Below, one piece after another: positions 3,455-36,465 of a stretch of 42,833 bases of DNA. How positions within the stretch are numbered: position 1 is the stretch's first letter; each line of letters starts with the position of its first letter. This DNA is from a virus. The notes under the pieces are model-generated. The model did no database searches, was not told where the DNA came from, and worked only from the letters and a program-made list of their open reading frames with translations. The stretch spans positions 1-42,833 of IMG/VR virus record IMGVR_UViG_3300020578_000164; one strand, given 5' to 3'. Both the position numbers and the translations under genes were made by a program.

Positions 3455-4054
3455 ATGGATACAGAGGACGCCAAAACCATGATCTCCGCTTTATGCGTTC
3501 GACACGACAGCGTGTATTACCGCATCCCCGGGGTGGATCCGTGGGATAGTGCAAGAGATTGCCGGAAATGCACCGACAGCCATCCGGTGATCGCACATCC
3601 GCCGTGCGCTCAGTGGGGCCGCACAAAGCCTCTGGCCACCGTTGATCGCGACCAGAAAGCCTTGGCGTTGTTTTGTCTGAATGCAGTCCGCAAACGAGGA
3701 GGTGTGTTGGAACACCCCCTCGCCAGCGGGTTGTGGTCGTGGGGGTGTATACCTTCTGACGGCAATCCCGATATGCATGGTGGCCGGCTGATAATTGTCG
3801 ACCAGTTCGACTTCGGGCATCCAGCTCGAAAGATGACCGGACTGTACATTGTCGGACTACCTCGACACGAAAAACCTATATCAGTCAAATTTTTCTTGTC
3901 GAGGTACTCGCAACCTGCAACGGGGGTACCGGGGCGGCTGATGACCTTGAAACGGCTTGGCCGGGAGGCTACGCCCAAACCCTTGGCCGAGGCTATGGTT
4001 GCGTTGATACGGCATTACGGGATAGGAGGATTGAATAATGAGCAACTATCTTAA
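3455..4054 (+). CDS. HPPC-motif phage protein, DNA cytosine methylase-like
   Basis: A 199-aa protein whose ATG starts 2 nt past the end of the primase gene, so translation is probably coupled. It contains VIAHPPCAQWGR and, about 35 residues on, GGVLEHPLASGLW. HPPC resembles the PC catalytic loop of C5-cytosine methyltransferases, and I recall similar unnamed proteins in many phage genomes. I see no clear SAM-binding glycine motif, so methyltransferase activity is uncertain. Its last codons (PLAEAMVALIRHYG...) lie in a 61-bp sequence repeated at 4781-4841. The end overlaps the next start by 17 nt. Confidence 0.6.
   Translation: MDTEDAKTMISALCVRHDSVYYRIPGVDPWDSARDCRKCTDSHPVIAHPPCAQWGRTKPLATVDRDQKALALFCLNAVRKRGGVLEHPLASGLWSWGCIPSDGNPDMHGGRLIIVDQFDFGHPARKMTGLYIVGLPRHEKPISVKFFLSRYSQPATGVPGRLMTLKRLGREATPKPLAEAMVALIRHYGIGGLNNEQLS
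3980..4040 (+). repeat. 61-bp perfect direct repeat, copy 1
   Basis: It runs from CCCTTGGCC through the GGAGG ribosome site to the ATG at 4038, covering the 3' end of the HPPC-motif gene and the translation start of the next gene. An identical copy lies at 4781-4841. Confidence 0.95.
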
Positions 4055-4748: not shown

Positions 4749-4780
4749 GCACGAGGGCGAGAAAAGGCGAAGGGCCGAAG

Positions 4781-4841
4781 CCCTTGGCCGAGGCTATGGT
4801 TGCGTTGATACGGCATTACGGGATAGGAGGATTGAATAATG
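4781..4841 (+). repeat. 61-bp perfect direct repeat, copy 2 (with gene-end remnant)
   Basis: Identical to 3980-4040. The first ~50 bases are a non-coding remnant of the 3' end of the HPPC-motif gene, and the last part supplies the ribosome site and ATG (4839) of the next gene. The sequences diverge straight after the ATG. It marks the right edge of the cassette containing 4038-4748; 4749-4780 holds nothing else. Confidence 0.95.
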
Positions 4842-5096
4842 TTGAATCAATACGAGCTGGAAATAACGTGTTTGTGCCCGGTGGATGATTTGCCCGACGT
4901 GTATCAGTTGACGATCACGGCACGGCGTGTGCTACCTGTGGAAGCGATTTTGCAAGTGGTCTCTGAGTTGAGTTCGCAGAAGCTTTTTCAGGAGGCTCTG
5001 TGCCAAGCAATCCATCGCAGGGTCAATGCCTGCTGTGTTTTGGTCGGGCACCACAGCGGAGTCAAGGTGCGGACGCAGTGCGGGGGTGCCGATTGA
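4839..5096 (+). CDS. Small conserved phage protein with GHHSGV motif, 85 aa
   Basis: The start is set by GGAGG in repeat copy 2. The product reads LEITCLCPVDDLPDVY near the N-terminus, FQEAL in the middle and LVGHHSGVKV near the C-terminus. This pattern (CPVD...D.Y, FQE, G.HSGV) is familiar from small phage proteins of unknown function next to accessory DNA genes. No fold can be named with confidence. Its stop overlaps the TTG start of the next gene, so the pair is probably translationally coupled. Confidence 0.65.
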   Translation: MLNQYELEITCLCPVDDLPDVYQLTITARRVLPVEAILQVVSELSSQKLFQEALCQAIHRRVNACCVLVGHHSGVKVRTQCGGAD

Positions 5097-5827
5097 TTAA
5101 ATACCACGGGACGCCAATTGGCGGTACAAAACGAGACGCAATGCTGTTTTTGCAGGGAAGGCATGCCTTGGTCAGTTACGCGGCTCCGCTACACTTGCCT
5201 GAAGTCATAAACTGCTGCGAGTCTTTTTGCCTAGACAACGGCGCTTTTTCTGTATGGAAAGCGGGAGAAGGAACGGTCGATGAGTGGGGCTACTACAACT
5301 GGGTATCCAACCTCGTCGACCACCCTTCTTTTGATTTTTTCATAATACCGGATGTCATCGATGGGACGGAGCAGCAGAACAACGACGCAGTCTTTCGATG
5401 GAAAAACATCCGCGGTGGTGTTCCGGTATTCCATCTTTCTGAAGACCCGTCAAGGCTTTTGTGGCTTGCCGGGATGTTCCCAAAAGTCTGTTTGGGGAGC
5501 ACGTCTAAATGGCCGCGAGTTGGGTCTGCCGATTGGTGGCCGTTAATGGCGGATTTTATGGACACCATTTGCCGGGGCGGCTCCCCGCCCTGCAAGTTGC
5601 ACGGCCTCAGAATGTTGAACCCCGCAGTATTTACTAAACTACCGCTGCATTCAGCAGATTCATGTAACGCCGCGATAAACGGCGGATTGTGTCTGTCCGG
5701 AGGAATCCACCCAAGCCTGGAACGGTGGCAAGGGTCGGAGAGAATAGCCCGCCGCATCGAAACGCATCAGTCGGCACCGTTCTGGGATCGACGAAACGTT
5801 GATCTGGAGGTAACTGACTTGCGGTAG
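5093..5827 (+). CDS. TGT/DpdA-like protein (candidate base-exchange enzyme)
   Basis: A 244-aa protein starting at a TTG that overlaps the previous stop. I chose this start because KYHGTPIGG lies immediately after it and is a conserved opening in similar phage proteins. Visible blocks in order are LDNGAFSVW (D48), IIPDVIDG (D87), GVPVFHL, CLGSTSKW (133-140), LHGLRM (H170, R173) and SADS (187-190). The layout recalls the TIM barrel of tRNA-guanine transglycosylases and the phage DpdA proteins that put 7-deazaguanines into DNA. D48 and D87 would be candidates for the catalytic acids. No queuosine-precursor genes are in the window, so a DNA-modification role is inference; an unrelated enzyme is possible. 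Confidence 0.55.
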   Translation: MIKYHGTPIGGTKRDAMLFLQGRHALVSYAAPLHLPEVINCCESFCLDNGAFSVWKAGEGTVDEWGYYNWVSNLVDHPSFDFFIIPDVIDGTEQQNNDAVFRWKNIRGGVPVFHLSEDPSRLLWLAGMFPKVCLGSTSKWPRVGSADWWPLMADFMDTICRGGSPPCKLHGLRMLNPAVFTKLPLHSADSCNAAINGGLCLSGGIHPSLERWQGSERIARRIETHQSAPFWDRRNVDLEVTDLR

Positions 5828-5831
5828 TACG

Positions 5832-5855
5832 TTTTTTTTTTTTTTATTGGGGGGG
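5832..5855 (+). repeat. T14 and G7 homopolymer tracts upstream of the recombinase
   Basis: Fourteen T (5832-5845), then ATT, then seven G (5849-5855), five bases before the ATG at 5861. The G-tract is the only plausible ribosome site. Slippage at either tract would change promoter or ribosome-site spacing, a classical phase-variation arrangement, although no variation is visible in one sequence. Confidence 0.8.
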
Positions 5856-5860
5856 CGGTC

Positions 5861-7369
5861 ATGGCAGCGTACATTTATGCACGGGTGTCGACAGTGGAGC
5901 AGGTTGTTGGGGGGTGCAGCATCGAAGGACAGGTGAGATCCTGTCGACTGTACTGCGAGGCCAACGGGCTTGTGTTGGGTGCGGCTACCAATTGCGACAA
6001 AGCCGGCGTGATTCTGGACGGCGGTCGCAGCGCGTTTTCGAAACCGTTTGCCACACGCCCCGGCGCAATGCTCCTCGCGGGAGCCTTGCAGCAGGGAGAT
6101 ACCGTTGTCGTGACCAGTTTGACGCGGCTGTTCCGCCGAGTCGCCGAAGCCGCCACGATAATGGAGCGGTGGGTTCAGATTGGCGTAAGCGTGACGTTTG
6201 TCGACTACCCGTCGCTTAGTTTCGATTCGGCGAACGGGCGGTGTTTGGTGTACTGCATGGCCGCCGTGGCTCAGCTCAAGAGCGAGTTGATCGCAGCGAG
6301 GGTCCGCGAAGGACGCGCGCGCAAGAAAGGTCTTCCAGCAGAACCGAACAGACCGGCTAAGCCGGCCAAGGTTTTGCTTCCGGCAGCGCAGCAGCCTATT
6401 GCCGAAGTGATTCGGCGTATGGCTGAAAAGCGGCCCTCTTCCCGATCCGGGCGGGTGTGCGTTTACGCCAGAGTTTCGACCGACGAGCAGTCTGTAGACA
6501 CACAACTTGCCATTTTGAGGCAGGCGTACCCGGGCGCTGTTGAGTATGTTGACCACGGGGTCAGTGCGTGGAAGACCTCTTTGCCGGACAGGCCCGAGGG
6601 TGGGCGAATGCTGAGAGAGCTGCAACCCGGAGACACGATTGTTGTTCTGCGACCAGACCGGGTATTCCGGTCCCTGAAGGACGCTGCGACCCAGATCGAC
6701 GCGATTCAAAAAGTTGGGGCGTTTTTGCACATTCACGAGGGTGGAATAAAATCCGACGAGCTGTTTGGTCGGCTGCTGCTGGGTATGTTGTCGGCGTTTG
6801 CTCAGCTTGAAAGCGAGGAGACCAGCAGGGCGACAAAGCACGCGATGGCGATCGCCTGCGGAACAAACGACGCCGCGTTGCAGGCCCGTCTTCCGAAACC
6901 GCTGCTTCGAGACGTGCCGCCGAAAACAAAACACTACGTTTTTGACGATGTGTTTGATTCAGGAGAGCGACAGCAAATGTGGCTGACAGTTCACCTGACC
7001 AAAGCAAACTATTGCAGTTTGGGTGTTTGTATTTTGGATGCCACAAACAGGAGTTTGTACGAGAAAGGGCTCCCGCCACTGACATCGCAATCGATGGACA
7101 TGCGGGACTACCGGCAGGCTTTGCGGGAGGTCGGTACAAAAAAAGCAAAGGCGTTGATACCCAAGATCGAAAACTACGCCCGCGTAGCCTCACCTGTCGG
7201 GTCTTCGCAAAACTTCCCGAAGGCGGAAAAACGGTACGAGCATTTCATGCGGGTGTTTGGTGAACTCCCTCGAGAGCAACGGGACCTGCGGCTACTCACA
7301 ATGATGCAGAGCCCGAAAGCTGTCGCCGCGTTCGCGGATGCAACCAAGCGAGCAGTCGAGACAGTTTGA
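5861..7369 (+). CDS. Double-headed serine recombinase (two resolvase domains), 502 aa
   Basis: Two full serine-recombinase catalytic domains lie in one chain. Domain 1 (about 4-155) has YARVST with R8 and nucleophile S10, then TSLTRLFR with R89 and R92. Domain 2 (about 198-330) has VYARVST with R204 and S206, then RPDRVFR with R267 and R270. Both keep a helix-E-like end (AAVAQLKSELIAARVREG; AFAQLESEETSRATKHA). All key Ser/Arg positions are present twice. The usual invertase HTH or large-integrase recombinase/zinc domains are not seen; residues 331-502 are unrecognised. It may act in integration, excision or resolution, working as a built-in dimer. Its end overlaps the convergent HTH gene by 74 bp. 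Confidence 0.85.
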   Translation: MAAYIYARVSTVEQVVGGCSIEGQVRSCRLYCEANGLVLGAATNCDKAGVILDGGRSAFSKPFATRPGAMLLAGALQQGDTVVVTSLTRLFRRVAEAATIMERWVQIGVSVTFVDYPSLSFDSANGRCLVYCMAAVAQLKSELIAARVREGRARKKGLPAEPNRPAKPAKVLLPAAQQPIAEVIRRMAEKRPSSRSGRVCVYARVSTDEQSVDTQLAILRQAYPGAVEYVDHGVSAWKTSLPDRPEGGRMLRELQPGDTIVVLRPDRVFRSLKDAATQIDAIQKVGAFLHIHEGGIKSDELFGRLLLGMLSAFAQLESEETSRATKHAMAIACGTNDAALQARLPKPLLRDVPPKTKHYVFDDVFDSGERQQMWLTVHLTKANYCSLGVCILDATNRSLYEKGLPPLTSQSMDMRDYRQALREVGTKKAKALIPKIENYARVASPVGSSQNFPKAEKRYEHFMRVFGELPREQRDLRLLTMMQSPKAVAAFADATKRAVETV

Positions 7370-7529
7370 CGTACTTCCGTCCGCCGATCTCAACTCGCGA
7401 TAAGCGATCGCCGTTTCTCCCGCGAGTGCTCCACTTTCGGACAGTGCTGACGTCCAAAGTCAAGCCGTAACGGGTCTGGACAAACGCCACGATTTCTTTG
7501 GCGCTGAGGAGTTGCTCCGGAGTTTGCAT
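7296..7529 (-). CDS. Excisionase-like HTH protein, 77 aa
   Basis: On the minus strand from an ATG (revcomp of 7527-7529); a TTG start at 7553 is possible. The product has LLSAKEIVAFVQTRYG, then STVRKWSTRGRNG and a wing-like RVEIGGRKYVKLS, the layout of winged-helix excisionase/MerR-type proteins and of DUF1580-like small HTH proteins known from Planctomycetes. It faces the serine recombinase and overlaps its 3' end by 74 bp, so it is a good candidate recombination directionality factor. No clear SD precedes the ATG. It may instead be a transcription regulator. Confidence 0.6.
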   Translation of the reverse strand: MQTPEQLLSAKEIVAFVQTRYGLTLDVSTVRKWSTRGRNGDRLSRVEIGGRKYVKLSRLLAWLHPRTRRQLSGSASL

Positions 7530-7609
7530 CGAGGGGGGCCTTATAGAGGACAAACGGGAATGTTGGTAGAATAGCGATTTGCCGGTATTGCTGTCCAGCC
7601 GAGGGTAAT

Positions 7610-7630
7610 GGAGGATTATGAAAATCCTCC
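7610..7630 (+). promoter_or_regulatory. Hairpin in the leader of the capsid operon
   Basis: GGAGGATT (7610-7617) pairs with AATCCTCC (7623-7630) around ATGAA, followed by CCCCTATTCT. It lies 24 bp before the scaffold ATG and just ahead of its GGAG site (7641-7644). With no good T-run it fits a regulatory or mRNA-stabilising stem better than a terminator. The rest of 7530-7654 shows no further gene; a TAGAAT at 7567-7572 could be a -10 box but has no -35 partner. Confidence 0.5.
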
Positions 7631-7654
7631 CCCCTATTCTGGAGCAGTAAAACC

Positions 7655-8701
7655 ATGTCTACATCATCAGCCTTCCCAACCTTTACCGACCTCGCGGCTG
7701 CTCAGAGCGCTCCGGGGGGAGCAACGCCATCGGCACAGCCGGCTGCTTCGGTTGTGCCGGTGGCTGCCCCGGCGGTGACCGCAACACCCGTCGCTGCCGT
7801 AGCCCCTCCGCAGATACCCCCGCCAGCAGCGGTGTCGACAAACGCAATGATTCGACGCCTCGAAGCAAGCGGTACTCTTAACCCCGGTCACGGTTTTACT
7901 GACGACATGCAGGTCTTGGAGTACTTGGCAGTTCAGCAGCAGCCTGCGCAAGAACCGACTTCTCCTGCCGCACAGCCGCCGCAGCCGGCCACTGGCGGTA
8001 TGCCAGCCCCGTCCCACAGTGAACTTGCTGCGGCGGCGGCGGCTTTGCAACAGTCCGGGATGCTGACCTTTGAAGCCGGAACAGGGGTGTGGAAAGCTGT
8101 CAGCCCGTTGGCCGCCACCGTCGCCAACGCTATGAACGAAAACGTTGCCCGTCAGCGGGCAGTGATGACCGAGCTTTCGGACCCGCAGGCATTTATCCGT
8201 AACTACGGCGCGGATGCTTTTTCTGAGTTTATCGCTCCGTTGCAAACGCAGATTCAACAGCTTACGGATGCTCTGCAGCAACAGCGTCAGATGCTTGCGG
8301 CTAATGCTCCGGACCCCGGAAAAGAATTTGTTGCCGCAAACTCTGCGGCCTTAAAAAACCCTGACGGCAGCCTTACTGCGGCAGGCCAGGCCTATTCGCA
8401 AGCGTGGGACGCGGCAGCACGAGCCGGCGTACGCAATCGAGAGGCAGCCCACGATCTGGCGTTTATGGCCGCTCGCCCGTTGATGCCTACGCCAGCAGCC
8501 CAAACCGTCCCGGCGGCACCGTCAAAACAGACGTTGCCGTGGTCCTCCACAATACCGACAACCGCAGTCAACCCTACGTTCTCAGCTCCCGGCCCCCTTA
8601 CGACGTCCGGTCCGGCTCCACTCGGCGTACCGGTCAACAACGCTGGATTTCCCGATTTTACCGCAATGGCGGCACAACGTGCTGCCGGCACCACTTCGTG
8701 A
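7655..8701 (+). CDS. Probable capsid scaffold protein, 348 aa
   Basis: It lies directly upstream of the major capsid gene, the usual place of the scaffold that guides procapsid assembly. The first ~130 residues are Ala/Pro-rich and disordered. The centre (about 150-235) is helical and Gln-rich (FIAPLQTQIQQLTDALQQQR), a likely coiled coil. The C-terminus is again Pro/Ala-rich and ends in a short FPDFTAMAAQRAAG segment that echoes the N-terminal FPTFTDLAAAQSAPG. Such motifs often contact the shell. GGAG precedes the ATG. No protease triad is seen, so it is not a scaffold-protease fusion. Confidence 0.65.
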   Translation: MSTSSAFPTFTDLAAAQSAPGGATPSAQPAASVVPVAAPAVTATPVAAVAPPQIPPPAAVSTNAMIRRLEASGTLNPGHGFTDDMQVLEYLAVQQQPAQEPTSPAAQPPQPATGGMPAPSHSELAAAAAALQQSGMLTFEAGTGVWKAVSPLAATVANAMNENVARQRAVMTELSDPQAFIRNYGADAFSEFIAPLQTQIQQLTDALQQQRQMLAANAPDPGKEFVAANSAALKNPDGSLTAAGQAYSQAWDAAARAGVRNREAAHDLAFMAARPLMPTPAAQTVPAAPSKQTLPWSSTIPTTAVNPTFSAPGPLTTSGPAPLGVPVNNAGFPDFTAMAAQRAAGTTS

Positions 8702-11269: not shown

Positions 11270-13346
11270 AGCCCGACCGTACGCGCCGTACGGGGTGTAC
11301 GGATTGACCGCAGGCACTGTAGCCGGCGCTCCCGGAAGCGAGTACTACGGGCCGATCTTGGGGGCTGTTGGGAACCTGTTTGACCTGCCGGGCAGCTCAG
11401 TACGCGATCTGTTGGCCGGAGAAAACCCTTTTGATCAATGGGCTTCGCCGTTGTCCGGAGACAACCGGGCTACGGGTCGCGACGTACTTGAACGGTTCGG
11501 GATGCGGGCTAACCGAGAGACAGGGATGGCGGGGTGGCTGGATGACCCGATGGAAGGCCTGAGAGACTTGGCCGGATTCGGGGTCGAGCTGGCGACCGAC
11601 CCGTTAAATTTCGCGTCGATGTTCAAGCTCGGAAAGCTGTTTCGAACAGGTAAGTCCGCCGCGGCGCATAACGCAGCGCTGGACGCCCTGCAGCGAAACC
11701 CGGAACGCCAGCGCCTTGGTCAGCAAATGTCTGAGGCGTTCGGTGAGTCTGGCGACCACACAATGGCCTTGATCGACGCGGCTACGATTCGCCAGGGTCG
11801 TGATCCCGGTTTGGTGTACGGCAGTCTTACGGTAAAAAACCTGGAGCGAGCGGCAACGGGCGTTGCTGCAGCTACGGCGGCGGCTGAGATGATGATGCCA
11901 GACTCTCCGGGACCAAACCCGTTGACGCTGAACCAGCCGTCACTACCGGACCTATCGCGACCGCTATTCCCGAGACTAATGGAAGACGAGGCTATCGACC
12001 TTTTTTCGGGAAATATAACCCATGACCAGTACAACGCGTTGATAGACACTCCGGGATATGACAGTTCAATCCCCAGAACCCCCCGGTTAAAAACCCCAAA
12101 GTACGTAGATTTTATTGAAAACCTCTGGTCAAAGCGCAGGTATGACAGAGAAGAGCTTCCGAACGAAAACTATCGGAGCGCGCATAAGGAGGTTGAAAAA
12201 GAAGTCGAGGCTATGGGCTTGGTGCCAGGTAGTGCACAGGCAGCTCACGCCTATCATGAAAAAATGCAGCCGAAAATAGAAGCTTTGGGTCGTTTGGGTA
12301 AAAACCCAACTGACGACGTAACTTCTTTTGTTGGTACCAATGTCGGTTCCAGAATTGACATTAAAGAGTTTGCAAGGGGTAACCCGATAGGAACGTTGCA
12401 TTTTAAGGATGGCCCTGTGCAGTATGTTAGGGCTGTACAGTTGCTGCCACAACGCGGCAAAGCGCTTGTAGAGTTCGGGCTTGCAAGCAATAATAAGACG
12501 CAAATCGCAAACCCTTTAGTCGAACACAAGATTGCGGAAAAGAATGTCTCTCTGGTAGCTTCTGGAGAAGGGAGCAAAAATTCGTGGGCTGTGATGTCCG
12601 GGCAGGTTGGGCCGACCGCCACCCGTGAGCAGGTGCGTGAAGCGGTCATGCAGGCAATGCAGGATCCTCAGTGGCAGCAGGTTGGGTTCAACCCCGAACG
12701 GCACAGCTACTTCTATTTGCAAGGCGACCACCGCACACGTGTTACCGGTGCCGACGAAGTGCTTCAATACGGCGATTTGGTCTTAGCCAAAAACCCACGT
12801 ACGGAGATGATGGGTTCGGAAGGTATTCGCCAGAGGCTGCAAGCGGTGGGGCTGATCCCGGACGACGTCTCCCCGCGGGCTTTGTATCAGCAAGCCGCCG
12901 TTGACGGCGACCCCCGCGCTCAGATTCAATTCACTCCGGAGGGGGCGGTCATCACGCCGTTTGCTCCCGACGCGTCGACAGCTCCGCACGAGGTCGGGCA
13001 TTACCTCGACAGGCTGTTACGCCCGCGCAGCCAGCGAACCCGTAATGCTGAAGAGGCTTTTGCCGGAGGCCTCGAAAACTATTTGGCCACTACCCAGACA
13101 AGTAGCCCGGGGATGGCCAATGCGATGGGGTATTTCAATCGCGAGATACCGCGCGTCTACGACCCGCAGTATGGGTTCCGGAATTTACCCGCTCGAGGTG
13201 GCGAGGACTACGGCGACTTGTTCGGGATCACCGACACGACGTCGCCGCTTGACAGGCAGCAAGTGCCTGACTTGGCTACGCCGGCGGGGCAGATGTTGTT
13301 GAGGAACATACTTGCCCGGTTCAACCCGTACGGGGGCGTGCAGTGA
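11244..13346 (+). CDS. Large virion protein with zincin-like HEVGH motif, 700 aa
   Basis: Residues 41-120 (from AVGNLFDLPGSS to ELATDP) match residues 44-123 of the 1842-aa protein at 30796-36324 at about 59 of 80 positions. The middle is more AT-rich and charged. Near 480-510, a WQQVGFNPERHSYFY segment followed by VLQYGDLVLAKNP resembles blocks seen in large polyvalent phage proteins. HEVGH lies at 582-586, with E603/E604 in AEEAFAGG as a candidate third ligand, the layout of zincin metallopeptidases. It may be packaged and injected, or process virion proteins. It overlaps both neighbours (26 nt upstream, GTGA downstream) and lies unusually between the zinc-finger gene and TerL. Confidence 0.7.
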   Translation: MPLRDLLSKARPYAPYGVYGLTAGTVAGAPGSEYYGPILGAVGNLFDLPGSSVRDLLAGENPFDQWASPLSGDNRATGRDVLERFGMRANRETGMAGWLDDPMEGLRDLAGFGVELATDPLNFASMFKLGKLFRTGKSAAAHNAALDALQRNPERQRLGQQMSEAFGESGDHTMALIDAATIRQGRDPGLVYGSLTVKNLERAATGVAAATAAAEMMMPDSPGPNPLTLNQPSLPDLSRPLFPRLMEDEAIDLFSGNITHDQYNALIDTPGYDSSIPRTPRLKTPKYVDFIENLWSKRRYDREELPNENYRSAHKEVEKEVEAMGLVPGSAQAAHAYHEKMQPKIEALGRLGKNPTDDVTSFVGTNVGSRIDIKEFARGNPIGTLHFKDGPVQYVRAVQLLPQRGKALVEFGLASNNKTQIANPLVEHKIAEKNVSLVASGEGSKNSWAVMSGQVGPTATREQVREAVMQAMQDPQWQQVGFNPERHSYFYLQGDHRTRVTGADEVLQYGDLVLAKNPRTEMMGSEGIRQRLQAVGLIPDDVSPRALYQQAAVDGDPRAQIQFTPEGAVITPFAPDASTAPHEVGHYLDRLLRPRSQRTRNAEEAFAGGLENYLATTQTSSPGMANAMGYFNREIPRVYDPQYGFRNLPARGGEDYGDLFGITDTTSPLDRQQVPDLATPAGQMLLRNILARFNPYGGVQ

Positions 13347-15076
13347 GCCTTTCTGATGCCCTGAAAGCGGCAGCCCGCCTTGTACGCCTGAACAACGACG
13401 CGTTGGAGTTGTTTCGACCGACAAAATACCAAGAGCCTGTTGCGATGACCAAGGCGTCGGAATGCTTGGTGCAGGGAGGCACCAGATCAGGCAAGTCCAC
13501 GATTGTTGCTGCTATGGTGGCGGCATACGCCAGAAACAAGCCGATCATATTTGCTGACGGAACGAAACACGATATCCGGGAAAAGGCTTGGGCGAGCCGG
13601 TCAACAACTGTCTGGCTGATCGGCCTGCAACTCAACCACATCGGGCAGACTCTTTACCGTTTGCTTCGCAAACCGGGAGCGTTTGACTGCGTACGGGATC
13701 CGCTTACGGGTAATCTACGTGCGTGGCAGCCGGGGGTTGTTCCCGGGGACGACCAGATTGGGCCGGAGGGTCGGGAGCCTGCGCCAGCGTTTATTCCCGA
13801 CGAGGACGTGGTGCAAGAGACTTGGGAGTCCAAAAGCGAACATAAACTGACTAGCATGACGCTGCGGAACGGCACGGTCATATATGCTTACGCAAGCACG
13901 GCAGAGGTGAAACGCGGCGACCCCGTGAATTTGATTTGGATTGACGAAGAGATTCGATTCTCTGATCACTACGCAGAATGGCAAAGCCGATTGAGTGACC
14001 GCAAGGGCCGACTGTTTTGGACAAGCTGGCCTGACCTGCAGACAGAGGCTCTGCTGAGACTACATGACCGAGCGAATACGCAGGCCTCCGAAATCGCTAG
14101 AGGCAAGCGTAAGACTGCGGACGTTGCCCGGTTTGTATTTGTCGGTAGCAACTCCCCGTTTATCGATTCGGAGGAGCTGCGCAAGCGTGCTGAGGGGTGG
14201 AGTGAGGCCGAGAGGCTGGCTCGAGACTTCGGGGAGTTTCCTGTTGGTACGATTTTGGCGTATCCTGAGTTTTCCGAGGAGCGTCATGTGGTTGACTACG
14301 GAGAAGGTAACCCTTTGAATGACCGCATCACGGCGGTCATGGATGAGCTGAACGGGGGTGTTCCGGATAACTGGCCTGTGGACTTGATCCTCGACCCGGG
14401 AACTACCAGCCCAGCAGTTTTGTGGTGTGCCATACCGACGCCGGATTACTGGGACGGAGGTGTTCCGTACTACGTAGTGTATCGCGAAATGAACGTAGCT
14501 CGCATAGATGCGCAAGATATGGCTGTTCGAATTCGAGCCATCGAACCTGATCGGACGTACTCGAGGTTCATAATCGACAAAAAAGCCGGCGCTCAAACGC
14601 CGATGGGGTTCGCGTGGAAAGTGGCCGAGCAGTACTCCCAAAAATTCAAAGCTGTTGGTGTCAGAAACCTGACAACCGGGTTTGAGTTCCTTCCGGGCGA
14701 GCACGTTTGGGCTGTTCGGACCTTGAAACTGCGTGCGTGGATGCGTGGCCGGCAAGACTGCCCCCGTCCACAACTGCGGATTTACGCAAGGAATTGCCCT
14801 ATCCTGATACAACAGATGAAGTCTGTTCGGAAGACGATCCGCAGGTCCGAAGTGCAGGATAAAATTGCTGACGGGCAGGTCCACGACGTACTGGACACGC
14901 TGGAGTACTGGGCCGGCAGCGACCCCACATTTCGCGTGGTAACGACTAAGGGCACAAGCCCGGGCTTGCGAATGTTCGAGCAAGACGTTAAATTTTGGGC
15001 TGACCTCCGAGCCTCTTCCCCCGGACAAGGCCCGGGCAAACCGATGATTATTTTAGGTGCGCCAGGTGCAATATGA
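13343..15076 (+). CDS. terL: Terminase large subunit
   Basis: The 577-aa packaging motor. Walker A is GGTRSGKST (45-53). Walker B is LIWIDEE with D201 and E202. The nuclease domain shows LILDPG (D351), FIIDKKAG and VHDVLDTLEYW as the expected acidic cluster. The protein cuts concatemers and pumps DNA through the portal (15434-17593). The GTG start overlaps the previous stop and its end overlaps the next ATG, so the three genes are coupled. Length and motif spacing are typical. Confidence 0.93.
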   Translation: MSLSDALKAAARLVRLNNDALELFRPTKYQEPVAMTKASECLVQGGTRSGKSTIVAAMVAAYARNKPIIFADGTKHDIREKAWASRSTTVWLIGLQLNHIGQTLYRLLRKPGAFDCVRDPLTGNLRAWQPGVVPGDDQIGPEGREPAPAFIPDEDVVQETWESKSEHKLTSMTLRNGTVIYAYASTAEVKRGDPVNLIWIDEEIRFSDHYAEWQSRLSDRKGRLFWTSWPDLQTEALLRLHDRANTQASEIARGKRKTADVARFVFVGSNSPFIDSEELRKRAEGWSEAERLARDFGEFPVGTILAYPEFSEERHVVDYGEGNPLNDRITAVMDELNGGVPDNWPVDLILDPGTTSPAVLWCAIPTPDYWDGGVPYYVVYREMNVARIDAQDMAVRIRAIEPDRTYSRFIIDKKAGAQTPMGFAWKVAEQYSQKFKAVGVRNLTTGFEFLPGEHVWAVRTLKLRAWMRGRQDCPRPQLRIYARNCPILIQQMKSVRKTIRRSEVQDKIADGQVHDVLDTLEYWAGSDPTFRVVTTKGTSPGLRMFEQDVKFWADLRASSPGQGPGKPMIILGAPGAI

Positions 15077-36324: not shown

Positions 36325-36350
36325 AAATGGTTAGTCTTTTCAGATAAAAT
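36321..36350 (+). promoter_or_regulatory. Strong sigma70-type promoter for the right module
   Basis: TTGAAA (36321-36326), 18-bp spacer, TAAAAT (36345-36350). Both boxes match consensus at five of six positions. The -35 box overlaps the stop of the giant gene. It would start a transcript with a leader of about 130 nt. Confidence 0.6.
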
Positions 36351-36380
36351 AGCAACGAATGGATGGAACTGCTGTCTTCT

Positions 36381-36465
36381 AAGCCATTTCAAACAACCTT
36401 GGCTTCCTGCAGCCCGCATTACTGCCACAATCCCCCGTGGCGGTCGCCTGGTGCGGTGCTGCAGG
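36381..36465 (+). ncRNA. Structured leader RNA (two stacked hairpin domains)
   Basis: AAGCCA (36381-36386) pairs with TGGCTT (36400-36405). Next to it CCTGCAGC (36406-36413) pairs with GCTGCAGG (36458-36465). Inside that, CCGC (36414-36417) pairs with GCGG (36453-36456), and GCCAC (36424-36428) with GTGGC (36437-36441). GTTTT follows, and the ribosome site of the nuclease gene is at about 36474. It may be a regulatory leader, an attenuator, a small RNA or a terminator of the upstream unit. It matches no riboswitch I know. Confidence 0.55.

Follow-up and report, generated by a model that had tools for sequence, protein, structure and literature searches.

A phage serine recombinase gene encoding two conserved catalytic domains in one chain, a possible single-chain pseudo-dimer

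A single open reading frame at positions 5861-7369 of the window (the whole 42,833-nucleotide stretch of phage DNA analysed here, a virus record of IMG/VR) encodes one protein chain with two conserved serine-recombinase catalytic domains. Both halves of the chain have PF00239 homology and carry the equivalents of the catalytic Ser, Arg8, Arg68, and Arg71, which places the protein in the known serine-recombinase superfamily as a variant that is itself new. We read it, with about even confidence, as a phage serine recombinase whose catalytic domain was duplicated in frame and which acts as a single-chain pseudo-dimer. The reading frame, whose start, stop, and length are as an earlier note on this DNA had given them, is divided as follows.

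5861..7369, plus strand: tandem-domain serine recombinase gene, 502 aa, a single uninterrupted ORF
5861..6325, plus strand: catalytic domain 1, residues 1-155 (Pfam, AF2 model, alignment)
6326..6448, plus strand: linker, residues 156-196, about 40 aa (AF2, alignment)
6449..6868, plus strand: catalytic domain 2, residues 197-336 (Pfam, AF2 model, alignment)
6869..7366, plus strand: C-terminal domain, family unrecognised, helical (clade conservation, AF2)

Pfam matched PF00239 (Resolvase) in two stretches of the 502-aa chain (E 3.3e-51, whole protein), and the PHROGs label, DNA invertase or integrase, likewise falls on two stretches. When the halves were searched separately, the Resolvase match was kept by the second half (E 4.8e-27) and by a truncated first half (E 5.4e-17). 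The conserved residues are Y6, R8, S10, Q24, D53, R66, R89, R92, and R147 in domain 1, and Y202, R204, S206, Q215, D231, R244, D266, R267, R270, and E317 in domain 2. The eight active-site residues listed in the earlier note (R8, S10, R89, and R92; R204, S206, R267, and R270) all lie where it had put them and, like Y6/Y202, Q24/Q215, and R66/R244, are invariant in 10/10 aligned proteins; in Tn3 resolvase numbering, the equivalents of Tyr6, Arg8, Ser10, Gln19, Arg45, Arg68, and Arg71 are invariant in both halves of the 10 proteins. In resolvase structures, Arg8 and Arg68 touch the scissile phosphate and Arg71 has been proposed to do so (PMC4499144). The description of both domains as complete thus holds for the listed serines and arginines but not throughout, as half 1 lacks D67 and E118 and half 2 lacks R125. 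In half 1, the D67 position is taken by T88 (T/H across the window's clade, 10 proteins) and the E118 position by K140 (K/R across the clade, 10 proteins), and the Arg125 equivalent is invariant in the 10 aligned proteins. In half 2, R125 is replaced by A/S/M/L, and an Arg (R323) directly precedes that position. The R119 position is Ser in both halves. As read from the alignment, the two halves are diverged in complementary ways.

The whole-chain AF2 model has a mean pLDDT of 69 and a pTM of 0.37, and its inter-domain arrangement is thus unreliable. Each half shows the resolvase-type order of strands and helices (moderate confidence), so that failure of one half to form the catalytic fold, which would have told against two catalytic domains, was not seen in this prediction, and each is closed by a long helix (124-155; 301-335) where a helix-E-like segment had been proposed. 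The best PDB fold matches of the model are gamma-delta/Tn3 resolvase and TP901-1 integrase. The linker (156-196) is variable in sequence, fast-evolving, and of low pLDDT, with a predicted helix near 180-189. The usual DNA-binding domains, noted earlier as missing, were indeed not found by Pfam and fold searches of the 502-aa chain, be it a resolvase HTH, the LSR 'Recombinase' domain, or a zinc ribbon. Profile searches also left residues 331-502 as unrecognised as before, with no family match in Pfam or PHROG and none in PDB folds or BFVD. Modelled alone, the C-terminus reaches a mean pLDDT of 79 (core 87-96), and within the C-terminal domain T380, Y384, N396, L399, K402, G403, and P405 are invariant. 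The top hit of its PDB fold search was 4kis (LSR), at a non-significant E of 2.0, and hhalign against LSR C-terminal parts gave a probability of 0.3%, compared with 96.7% for the positive control; a hidden LSR Recombinase domain is therefore unsupported by either profile comparison or fold. From its position in the chain, the C-terminal domain is presumably DNA-binding.

The gene is found unchanged in an independent contig of 57,551 bases (G001), which encodes the identical 502-aa protein and matches window positions 5844-42833 at 99.94%. Internal stops are absent from the tandem gene in 16 further related records, and no tested record of the 21 tandem carriers has a stop between or within the domains; a relative with two separate genes, named earlier as grounds for rejecting a single chain, was not found. 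Just 5' of the recombinase start and outside the gene, positions 5832-5852 contain T and G homopolymer runs. The G run is longer by two bases in G001, whose contig starts there, and the homopolymer run is probably the cause of that contig end.

Both catalytic domains are under strong purifying selection, judged from the closest pair of tandem proteins (L062/L065), in which half 1 shows the protein's lowest dN/dS (0.017), half 2 follows with 0.030, and the linker and C-terminus reach about 0.10. In a tree of 60 catalytic domains, all first halves group together (98/92), as do all second halves (99/78), the deep relative L162 included in each, and the two groups are sisters (91/92), a grouping whose support is moderate and not decisive in a tree with several long branches. 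The nearest single-domain sequences to both halves are those of an Oscillatoria plasmid, L116, G235, and L071 (85/91 grouping). Since the halves are sisters and L162 falls in the clade of each, a single internal duplication likely preceded the split of the L162 lineage. A smaller first tree gave a long-branch warning, and this inference rests on the fuller 60-domain tree, in which the sister relationship of the halves also disfavours a fusion of two unrelated recombinases.

Relatives were sought through the neighbouring genes, of which the scaffold-position and MCP-like genes take their names from position.

7296..7553, minus strand: small HTH-like protein, 85 aa, convergent with the recombinase and overlapping its 3' end
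7655..8701, plus strand: gene in scaffold position, syntenic in the clade, L162, and L166
8716-9861: MCP-like gene, directly after the scaffold-position gene
13343..15076, plus strand: terminase large subunit (phrog_2, E 2.4e-16)

Metagenome contigs were searched with the terminase and the MCP-like protein, followed by further scans, and the tandem recombinase was found with conserved synteny in 21 virus records (11 distinct proteins, window included; one record, L134, begins inside the gene). The carriers are a group of freshwater phages, and within the window's clade every phage found by terminase or MCP whose contig reaches the place has the tandem recombinase. Patterns from P0001 alone recovered G001 only, and nothing in the bacterial genomes scanned. 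The deep relative L162 (MCP about 29% identity) has the same tandem architecture with both serines and the active-site Arg set kept. Its half 1 retains D67 and its half 2 appears to retain R125 (alignment read by eye), which implies that some of the losses in the window's clade came later. In L162 and in L166 (MCP 29% and 30%, respectively), a two-domain ORF lies directly 5' of the scaffold-position and MCP-like genes. In L166 (IMGVR_UViG_3300028592_000008, 5021-6358) this is an intact 445-aa ORF from which the N-terminal Ser/Arg motif has gone in both halves, together with most of the Arg68/Arg71 pair; it is possibly a dead recombinase with a retained role, or one in decay. A search for relatives of L166 found none, leaving a single record. 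The contigs L163, L165, and L168 have no PF00239 match, the record of L168 ending near the MCP.

Outside these phages, searches of 50,697 phage and 72,556 plasmid records gave no tandem protein (at least 80% query coverage). With the family profile, only single-domain proteins were among the matches listed for the phyla of G018 (a Pseudomonas) and G019 (Salsuginibacillus), 399 genomes each, with no more than three candidates scored per genome in both, and none reached the cut-off in 42 genomes of the phylum of G020 (Sabulitectum); cyanobacteria and planctomycetes lie outside the sample. The search for other proteins with two resolvase domains, which the earlier note had proposed, was thus positive for the clade, L162, and L166 and negative for the phages, plasmids, and 840 sampled bacterial genomes, results that suggest, and do not prove, the rarity of the tandem protein. 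A literature phrase search for double or tandem resolvase domains found no paper. Some architectures with two resolvase domains may be listed in protein-family databases.

Known serine recombinases work as tetramers of chains with one catalytic domain each, which cut both sites and rotate one half by 180 degrees (PMC9943657, PMC11607074). Two catalytic domains per chain would allow a synapse of two chains. In the pseudo-dimer that we propose, the two catalytic copies would have diverged after duplication inside one reading frame, and the halves would pair within the chain on one crossover site, with the single C-terminal domain providing one-sided DNA recognition. Two such chains would build the four-catalytic-domain synapse for which other serine recombinases use four chains; the serines would cut the DNA and the ends would be exchanged, with the linker limiting or guiding rotation. 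A linker joining halves on opposite sides of a single site would span the interface at which rotation takes place and should restrain it, whereas no such restraint is expected if both halves belong to one rotating half. A fuller version, in which two chains form the synapse, each of the two diverged domains of a chain takes one side of an asymmetric site, and strand exchange is held to one half-turn by the linker, we hold only tentatively. The most likely job would be site-specific recombination of the phage's own genome (integration/excision or resolution), since among the annotated genome parts no further site-specific recombinase was seen: neither a tyrosine integrase nor another integrase, a partition gene, or a repressor is among the families listed for G014 (its first 25 PHROG families, some ORFs spanning locus ends left out) and G001. 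Strict patterns retrieved no provirus in bacterial genome scans, and neither an inversion nor an obvious recombination site was seen between close relatives. A role as invertase of a visible segment was rejected, as close contigs show no inversion and the indels read between G002-G005 bear no site-like signature. Against a pseudo-dimer, one half may not cut, given the absence of D67 and E118 from half 1 and of R125 from half 2, and in L166 the tandem fold persists although both halves have lost their motifs.

The complementary losses are also compatible with a chain in which one half cuts and the other assists. A division of labour, in which one half, more likely half 2, cuts and the other is a tethered structural or regulatory subunit, is possible but doubtful; it draws on the replacement of D67 and E118 in half 1 of 10/10 proteins, on the retention of D266 and E317 in half 2, and on the known architectural roles of accessory-site resolvase dimers (PMC9943657). 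However, the Ser, Arg8, Arg45, Arg68, Arg71, and Arg125 equivalents of half 1 are all invariant, its dN/dS is the lowest in the protein (closest pair), and half 2 itself is without R125. Changes at the D67 position may, moreover, be tolerated, as some large serine recombinases have S/T there. It is improbable that the protein is mainly no recombinase and has put the fold to a new use in binding DNA, as an architectural or regulatory factor of the late-gene region. The intact two-domain ORF of L166, which occupies the same position but lacks both catalytic motifs, and the position of the gene upstream of capsid genes throughout are in line with such reuse, but the window's clade and L162 keep both serines and the active-site Arg set, selection in the window's clade is strong, and L166 is a single record that could be decaying. 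An artefact, in which an assembly error or a lost stop fused two genes, has nothing in its favour, since the homopolymer that broke one assembly sits outside the gene, and is rejected as having next to no probability by the identical independent contig and the unsplit tandem in 21 records.

The 85-aa HTH-like gene is a conserved neighbour of the tandem recombinase in the clade, with weak matches to DUF1580 (E 6e-4), HTH_33, HTH_17, and the phrog_66 excisionase (E 0.046), and is a candidate Xis-like factor or regulator. We do not accept it as a proven directionality factor, given the weak matches and its divergent orientation to the capsid genes. Because of this orientation, and because a conserved promoter-like and hairpin region lies between, it may regulate the capsid genes rather than the recombinase. 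Comparison by eye shows this region (7554-7654, HTH gene to scaffold-position gene) to be conserved throughout the clade, with a promoter-like motif pair and a partly palindromic stretch (TATTGC...); the hairpin differs in sequence between clades yet still pairs, and is followed by a C-run. The DUF1580 match, from a family with a planctomycete distribution, hints at a Planctomycetes host.

The terminase and the MCP-like protein had no tblastn match in the 50,697 phage records, and the lineage is apparently an unsampled one. Complete relatives are about 64-68 kb, and several records are self-closing: G014 (about 64.7 kb) is bounded by an 87-base terminal repeat, and in G007 and G008 the opening bases recur close to the end of the record. 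Among DNA-replication genes, a SNF2-type helicase, an exonuclease, and a single-strand binding protein are encoded by both the window's phage and G014, and G001 has a DNA polymerase A gene. The gene upstream of the recombinase (5051-5827) is queuine tRNA-ribosyltransferase-like (phrog_887, E 1.4e-51), suggesting 7-deazaguanine-type DNA or RNA modification. Elsewhere, the window contains a pair of repeats of about 68 bases, 97% alike (3973-4040 and 4774-4841), of which G001 has several diverged copies (48139-50694 and 52951-56359), as well as, near its start, a tandem array of units about 29 bases long (336-514), and a tRNA-Ser gene (anticodon tga; 36350-36423, minus strand).

The relatives of this protein are assemblies of separate single units, and a duplicated chain would offer a natural test of how the machinery moves: with a linker of about 40 residues, the relation of linker length to rotation number, and which domains share a site, would be directly testable. 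As mutations can be placed in either half of the same chain independently, it would also be a natural start for asymmetric-site recombinases. If one half is only structural, the family would show how chemistry is lost from a duplicated recombinase domain, and L166 may stand at the end of that process.

Compared with known systems, the protein shares the catalytic fold and the Ser/Arg active site with the small serine recombinases (Tn3/gamma-delta resolvase, Gin/Hin invertases), which are among its best PDB matches and are without an N-terminal insertion, as is half 2. Whereas these combine a single catalytic domain with a small C-terminal HTH in about 180-200 aa, the window protein is 502 aa long and has two catalytic domains, and no HTH was detected in its C-terminus of about 170 aa. 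The large serine recombinases (A118, phi105, and TP901-1 integrases) are phage-borne too and have the N-terminal insertion in common with half 1, and the TP901-1 catalytic domain is among the fold matches; in contrast, their single catalytic domain precedes Recombinase (PF07508) and zinc-ribbon domains, to which the window protein has no Pfam match. The proteins of the Oscillatoria plasmid pOSCIL6304.02 (L013), G583 (L116), G235 (L111), and L071 have one catalytic domain each. Those of the plasmid, G235, and L071 share the FR of the Arg68-Arg71 motif with both window halves, but their C-terminal parts are LSR-like by profile, unlike that of the window protein. Chitinibacter and Pseudarthrobacter plasmids encode two different serine recombinases in adjacent but separate genes, pairs that the trees do not group with the window halves; CcrA/CcrB of SCCmec are analogous adjacent, separate recombinase genes. 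The IS607 transposase (TnpA) is also an unusual serine recombinase with atypical dimers, and consists of an N-terminal DNA-binding domain and one catalytic domain (PMC6188088), whereas in the window protein a catalytic domain starts at the N-terminus.
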